NCBI GenBank assembly: GCA_003021325.1
Contig: PXQM01000130.1
Coordinates: 1 to 5,351 of the forward strand
Length of the DNA stretch: 5,351 nt
Reading direction: 5' to 3'
Source: Halobacteriales archaeon QH_10_70_21
GTDB lineage: Archaea > Halobacteriota > Halobacteria > Halobacteriales > Haloarculaceae
The translations under genes were made by a program, and so were the position numbers. The notes below the pieces were generated by a model that had not been told where the DNA came from, ran no database searches, and saw only the letters and a program-made list of their open reading frames with translations. Below are positions 4,007 through 5,351 of this stretch, in pieces (positions within the stretch are counted from its first letter, which is position 1; every line of letters starts with the position of its first letter).

Positions 4007-4746
4007 TGCAGCGATGAACGCCTCGAAGGATGCGCTCGGAGTCCCTCCGCCGCCGCGCCCGTTCGGCCCTCCTCGACCGTTTCGGTATCGACGCCCGTGC
4101 GCTCGGGGCGTTCAGGGTCGCGCTCGGCCTGCTCGTGCTCTCGGACCTCGCGATGCGGGCGCGGCACCTGACGGCGTTCTACACCGACGCCGGCGTCCTG
4201 CCGCGGTCGACGCTCGCGGAGACCTATCCGCTCCTGGCGACGCTCTCGGTCCACACCGTCACCGGGTCGACGCGGGGACAGGCGGTCCTCTTCGCCGTGA
4301 CGGCCGTGGCCGCCGCGGCGCTCCTCGTCGGCTACCGGACCCGGCTCGCGACCGCCGTGACGGGCTACCTGCTGCTGTCGCTGTACCTCCGCAACCGGTA
4401 CGTCCTCAACGGCGGCGACGGCCTGCTGGTCCTGTCGCTGCTGTTCGGCGTCTGTCTGCCGCTCGGCGGGCGCTGGTCCGTCGACGCGCTCCGTGACGCG
4501 GAGCCGCGCCGGCGGGTCGCTACCCTCGCGACCGCCGCCATCCTCCTGCAGCTCGTGGTCATCTACGTCACGAACGCCGTGTTCAAGCTCCGGAGCGACG
4601 CCTGGACGAGCGGGCAGGCCGTCAGGTACGTCCTCGGCCTGGAGCAGTTTTCCGTGGGTCTCGGCCCGCACGCGACGGCGTACCCGGAGCTGCTGGTCGC
4701 GATAAACTGGCTGTGGGTCGCGATGCTCCTCGGGGCGCCGCTGCTG

Positions 4747-4953
4747 GTTCTCGCGACCGGCGGGCCGGGCCAGGTCTACGACCACACGACGAACGCGGTC
4801 GCGAACACGGGCGACGGCCCCGCGATGGCCTACCGCGCAGGCGTGCCCTTAGAGGACATGGAGTTCATCCAGTTTCACCCCACGACGCTCCCCTCTACCG
4901 GTGTTCTCATCACCGAGGGCGTCCGCGGCGAGGGCGGAATTCTCTACAACTCG
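4747..4953 (+). other. sdhA: Internal fragment of succinate dehydrogenase flavoprotein (sdhA) inside the HTTM gene
   Basis: About 69 codons match the FAD/substrate region of SdhA, colinear with bacterial and haloarchaeal enzymes: VLATGG (the FAD-domain strand and glycines), TNAVANTGDGPAMAYRAGVP, MEFIQFHPT (with the active-site His region), STGVLITEGVRGEGG (the Thr-Glu substrate site) and ILYN. In a complete SdhA this would be followed by an ERFM-type segment; here it stops at ILYNS. The sequence is in frame with the preceding HTTM codons and in the same orientation. Its 3' edge abuts the HTTM C-terminal coding sequence one base out of register. The left junction lies between about 4747 and 4770; the Pro in GGPGQV, where I expect a Leu or Ala, may mark it. 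Codons such as TTA, TCT, GGT, GTT and ATT are more frequent than in the flanks, hinting at a different source genome. There are no terminal repeats or target duplication. Confidence 0.88.
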
Positions 4954-5351
4954 GCTCCGACGGACCGGCGGTCGACGCCGACGACTACGTCTGGAAGCTG
5001 TTCGCCCCGAACCCGCCCACGACGGTCCGGTGGGTGGTGGCGTCGGCGACGCTGGAGACCGGCGAGCGGGTCGACGCGCTCGACGGGTCGGCCGTCGAGT
5101 GGGACCCGCCCGACGCGGCCGACACCTATCCGAGCGCACTCTGGCACCGGTACTTCGGCGAGATGCGCGCGGCCGACGCGTCGGAGCGCCGCCCGCTCGG
5201 TGCGTACCTCTGCCGGCGGGGCGTCCCGGGACGCGAGGCGTCCGTCGAGTCGGTGTCGGTGTACCTGGTCGAGGAGCCGGTCGCGGCGGCGGGCGGCGGC
5301 GACCGCCGGCGGGTCGAGGTGGTCTCGAGGGAGTGCGCCGACGACGCGCCC
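4953..5351 (+). pseudogene. HTTM protein C-terminal soluble domain, in a shifted frame, incomplete at the window end
   Basis: Reading from 4953 (GGC TCC GAC) gives 133 codons without a stop to the last base. DYVWKLFAPNPPTTVRWVV near the start is the hallmark of the C-terminal domain of haloarchaeal HTTM proteins (a W-x-x-FAPNP element). RVDALDGSAVEWDPP, TYPSALWHRYF and RRPLGAYLCRR follow in the order usual for the family, then a YLVEEP strand. It is separated from the matching N-terminal half (4030-4746) by the sdhA segment and is one frame off. Without that segment and with the lost helices restored, the two parts would make one protein. There is no start codon or promoter in front of it, so it is probably not translated in this frame. 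Confidence 0.75.

Follow-up and report, generated by a model that had tools for sequence, protein, structure and literature searches.

The window (the whole stretch of DNA analysed here, 5351 bases in length) is very probably a chimeric contig, generated by metagenome assembly or by template switching during library preparation, and not the record of a gene fusion carried by a living cell. Judging from sequence comparisons, a starting haloarchaeal stretch with citE-like, gdh, P450, mvaD and HTTM genes would have lost pieces from its P450 and mvaD genes, and the middle of its HTTM gene would have been swapped for ~200 bp of sdhA that probably belonged to another community member, with the joins arising at the bench or during computation. 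We infer the status of the record as a metagenome contig, the technical nature of its joins and the step responsible for them. A technical chimera is preferred because three neighbouring genes are broken, one of them an isoprenoid-pathway gene, because near-identical intact siblings exist, and because one of the pieces looks foreign.

Along the + strand of the window, an HpcH/citE-like lyase gene is followed by one of the glutamate dehydrogenase type, a short ORF, mvaD and, last, HTTM (Table 1). The citE-like, gdh, mvaD and HTTM genes keep the same order in three genomes (L001, L002 and L003), to which the N-terminal HTTM part is 74-76% identical. Three consecutive genes (P450, mvaD and HTTM) are damaged inside 5.4 kb; the P450 and mvaD lesions are absent from the initial annotation of this DNA.

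Table 1. Features of the window, with the state of each gene
Feature	Position	Strand	Remarks
HpcH/HpaI-citE-like lyase gene	125..970	+	apparently intact
glutamate dehydrogenase-type gene	1050..2309	+	apparently intact
cytochrome P450 gene lacking ~1.03-1.06 kb of its centre	2394..2945	+	N and C ends joined at ~2798-2832, in an imperfect direct repeat
mvaD (phosphomevalonate decarboxylase) lacking 78 bp (26 codons) at ~3492-3495	3039..3932	+	by comparison with relatives
HTTM (PF05090) membrane protein gene, N-terminal part, residues 1-245	4030..4764	+	Pfam; 245/245 identical to P0002
sdhA (succinate dehydrogenase flavoprotein) internal fragment, VLATGG to ILYN	4750..4954	+	~4750-4763 assignable to either gene; right edge 4951-4955 approximate
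the same HTTM gene, C-terminal part, frame of 4953	4956..5351	+	131/132 identical to P0002; truncated where the contig ends

An HTTM gene with an sdhA centre

The frame that begins at 4030 meets no stop codon before the contig ends, while its content changes along the way. Over 4030-5349 it gives Pfam matches to HTTM (PF05090, E 1.8e-11), a domain that is kin to vitamin K-dependent gamma-carboxylase, and to FAD_binding_2 (PF00890, E 2e-20). Residues to ~245 of the predicted protein are HTTM, residues 239-308 are FAD_binding_2, and the remainder is HTTM C-terminal sequence translated in a frame that is not its own. Among the best 120 of 7633 matches of a protein search is P0002, an intact and near-identical HTTM protein of 535 aa that agrees with the window at 245/245 residues on the left and at 131/132 on the right. 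The Pfam matches and this alignment bear out what the initial annotation had described, namely an HTTM frame that runs into SdhA and an HTTM C-terminus that resumes in another frame, as well as its proposal that both flanks come from one HTTM protein. By the present comparison, HTTM codons run to ~4764, SdhA sequence occupies ~4750-4954 and HTTM resumes at ~4956.

Residues 246-355 of P0002, 110 in all, are absent from the window protein. Alignment with HTTM homologues, which the initial annotation had recommended for defining the missing helices, places the loss at this stretch, and hydropathy predicts two membrane segments within it (255-283 and 325-354), so that the membrane segment expected between the flanks is indeed gone. 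Against the window protein these 110 residues score 32, less than the 60 reached by the best shuffled sequence, whereas against the 118 other HTTM proteins listed (best 120 of 7633 matches) they score at least 83. That a stretch alignable in 118 other proteins cannot be aligned in the window makes this, far beyond chance, a replacement and not a simple insertion, as had been claimed, with SdhA sequence standing where the P0002 residues should be. The HTTM domain of the window is incomplete, covering profile positions 4-192 of 259 versus 4-258 in intact P0002.

If the merged gene encoded a conserved and functional HTTM-SdhA fusion protein, then the in-frame left joint and the frame that remains open to the contig end would be expected, but the SdhA piece amounts to only ~68 residues, the HTTM C-terminus lies out of frame, and the three SdhA words tested occur in 0/119 other HTTM proteins among the best 120 of 7633 matches. 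These comparisons give no sign of a conserved fusion among the 119 proteins, for which the initial annotation would have required homologues with the SdhA-like segment in intact frame, and we regard a functional fusion as scarcely credible. The chimeric protein itself (P0001, HTTM plus FAD domain) forms a cluster of one member from one contig.

Lesions in the P450 and mvaD genes

By comparison with L003, the ORF at 2394-2945 corresponds to the two ends of a cytochrome P450 of 527 aa. The L003 orthologue is intact and matches PF00067 (E 7.3e-54); at a threshold of E 0.01 the window ORF gives no Pfam match. The gap measures 1035 bp relative to L003 and 1062 bp relative to L028, L030 and L032, while L001 and L002 match the last part of the window P450 only; the intact P450 seen for comparison is the more distant L003 orthologue, at 78% over the N part. 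The joint falls within an imperfect direct repeat, where the alignments to L028, L030 and L032 share 35 bp. Here the window reads GACGACGCTCGCGACC, identical to the C side of L003, the N side of L003 differs at 2/16 bases, and the longest exact word common to the two L003 sides is 10 bases over the stretches compared. The deletion keeps the reading frame.

The 78 bp lost from the window mvaD at 3492-3495 are present in 12/12 distinct genomes compared (exactly 78 in 11 and 77 at the alignment ends in one, with L023-L025 counted as second readings of the L001-L003 genomes), and this deletion also keeps the reading frame. At the protein level, a 27-residue stretch between SHL and EVPAF is aligned at 27/27 positions in 119/119 other listed proteins (best 120 of 2128 matches; 322-326 aa long) and at 1/27 in the window. 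Eleven MvaD relatives (P0241-P0250 and P0252, with P0251 left out of the alignment) are 90-99% identical elsewhere and contain the stretch by eye. Nine intact forms, P0241-P0249, are 97-99% identical to the window MvaD, and the shortened protein, P0240 (297 aa), is a cluster of one member from one contig. Archaeal lipids depend on isoprenoid synthesis, the pathway in which MvaD acts. Because P0243, an intact MvaD 98% identical to that of the window, lists a contig of 15598 bp and the longest contig of P0002 also has 15598 bp, the intact MvaD and the intact HTTM protein are probably encoded on one contig.

A possible fourth lesion was examined in the slot between P450 and mvaD, where L001-L003 have 476-537 more bases than the window. 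This candidate was rejected because the content of the slot differs among relatives (L001, L003, L027, L028, L030 and L032) and looks like natural variation. The additional bases are missing from L028, L030 and L032, a membrane-protein-looking ORF fills the slot in L001 (4340-4940) and L003 (4400-4970), and L027 (1960-2680) has an ORF in the opposite orientation.

The lesions might instead belong to a real decayed locus of one strain, in which the P450 and mvaD deletions arose by slippage or end joining and a break in the HTTM gene was patched with the sdhA of a neighbour. Both deletions being in frame, the placement of the P450 joint within an imperfect direct repeat with its 35-bp alignment overlap, and the occurrence of joints that share few bases or none, which are hard for a k-mer assembler, all agree with such a history. 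We nevertheless judge it unlikely, since the window MvaD lacks 26 residues that every one of the 119 other listed proteins (best 120 of 2128) retains, and since it is improbable that neighbouring genes of a single short contig suffered three events when near-identical intact sequences exist elsewhere.

The sdhA piece and the four joints

The initial annotation had identified the inserted segment as sdhA and proposed a DNA search with it. A search of this kind, with window positions 4750-4950, confirmed the identity at 84-87% in 5/6 genomes; the sixth, G005, gave weak matches only (best E 1.2e-7). The segment covers PF00890 profile positions 197-282 of 414 only, and no match to PF02910 (Succ_DH_flav_C) is listed for the window by Pfam; P0121 has both domains.

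As protein, the piece is identical at 68/68 residues to P0121 and P0125, both uncultured, at 67/68 to Halococcus thailandensis, at 65/68 to H. saccharolyticus, at 62/68 to a Halococcus MAG and at 65/68 to two Haloarculaceae MAG proteins. In L013-L017, the five related genomes whose match could be read, agreement is at 63, 62, 64, 61 and 60 of 68 residues, respectively. At two positions the piece has I/T, L013, L015, L016 and L017 have V/S, and L014 (the Halorubrum aidingense genome) has I/S. Among 119 SdhA matches (the best 120 of 7974 minus the window's own) I/T occurs 36 times, V/S 44 times, I/S 18 times and V/T 17 times, with four unparsed; I/T is found in Halogeometricum, Halobellus and H. 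thailandensis, V/S in a Natronomonas MAG and in QS_4_69_31, V/T in H. saccharolyticus, and I/S in one of the two Haloarculaceae MAG proteins, the other being unparsed. The piece has a GC3 of 0.873, compared with a mean of 0.952 over the window; 16/1180 windows are as low, and the difference is weak. Several sdhA codons at 4847-4940 end in A or T (TTA, TCT, GGT, GTT and ATT), where G or C predominates in the related sdhA genes.

Because the piece matches two uncultured SdhA proteins at 68/68 and the five related genomes at 60-64/68, it probably came from another community member, a suggestive comparison that points to a donor outside the host clade. A donor from the host's own family may also be entertained, since two MAG proteins of Haloarculaceae agree with the piece at 65/68. 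Halococcus is a lead that comes from protein identity, by which the donor cannot be named because SdhA is too conserved. Delivery of the fragment by a mobile element or a gene-transfer-like particle would suit its foreign appearance, but it would leave the P450 and mvaD lesions unexplained, and 110 codons were replaced, not inserted into. When mvaD and the sdhA piece were used for protein-pattern scans of a viral collection, there were pattern matches but none was confirmed as a relative, and we consider such delivery very improbable.

The initial annotation had proposed microhomology at both edges of the sdhA segment, and this is plausible for one of them. At the left joint ~14 bases, CTCGCGACCGGCGG at 4750-4763, are shared with L013 sdhA, which makes shared sequence plausible here, with the HTTM side known from the residues LATGG of P0002. 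At the right edge the window reads TACAACTCGGCTCCGAC, and it has AACTCGGCTCCGAC where P0002 has N-S-D, so that the right joint is not a clean crossover at AACTCGG; set against P0002, a protein only, it looks blunt or nearly blunt. At the mvaD joint the left CATCTCC and the right CCGAGG abut with zero overlap if the host alanine codon is GCC; in L001-L003 this codon is GCG, which would leave two bases unaccounted for. With the sequence of relatives as proxy for the host, the mvaD joint and the right HTTM joint seem to share almost no bases, and an exact overlap of at least 20 bases was shown at none of the four joints, by the same proxy of relatives' DNA or protein. Short or missing overlaps fit template switching or forced contig joining better than a plain k-mer jump.

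Origin of the joins and comparison with known systems

Two routes to the chimera appear feasible: molecules may have switched template while a library was amplified, or an assembler may have linked reads or contigs across short similarity in a strain-rich metagenome. An assembler artefact, which the initial annotation had offered as its alternative, is favoured by lesions in three genes combined with intact relatives, the HTTM gene (P0002) and mvaD (P0241-P0249) both having intact versions in near-identical sequences. The genuine chimera that it had also entertained finds no support, given the intact near-identical protein, two further lesions including that in mvaD, and the foreign-looking sdhA piece. 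Metagenome assemblies often contain chimeric contigs; one benchmark (PMC11261854) counts 22.15 of them per genome with megahit and 2.63 with SPAdes.

Two main points weigh against an artefact. No exact overlap of the length given above appears at any joint, a poor fit to a simple k-mer jump, and overlaps this short would require chimeric molecules or forced contig joining. In addition, the P450 and mvaD gaps are both in frame, as they would be under selection, an outcome with a probability of ~1 in 9 by chance. Outside the lesion one residue differs between the window and P0002, and because the window is one residue off P0002 and 1-3% off the P0241-P0249 MvaD proteins it may represent a distinct strain; the intact siblings show a species with intact genes, not every cell of it. 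A real minority strain of a hypersaline community, with a template-switch rearrangement hot spot that produced the in-frame P450 and mvaD deletions and received a 200-bp sdhA patch from another lineage, is conceivable and, in our estimate, quite unlikely. Were it true, near-blunt joining could paste in short foreign coding DNA.

A chimeric contig remains the preferred reading, and as such the window is a warning, since it yields protein records that resemble a new fusion (P0001) and a shortened enzyme (P0240). If the joints are real, they would be an uncommon example of a chromosome patched with short foreign DNA.

Compared with known families, both flanks of the window gene resemble haloarchaeal HTTM proteins (PF05090), P0002 being the near-identical intact relative, but those proteins keep the 110 central residues for which the window has SdhA sequence. 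The central piece matches SdhA (PF00890) at all 68 residues of P0121 and P0125, yet relative to the whole protein it is an internal ~200 bp that has neither the start nor the C-terminal domain. Chimeras from metagenome assembly or amplification resemble the window in their joins between unrelated genes, their deletions within genes and the presence of intact siblings in related data, and differ from it at two of its joints, which have little or no overlap.
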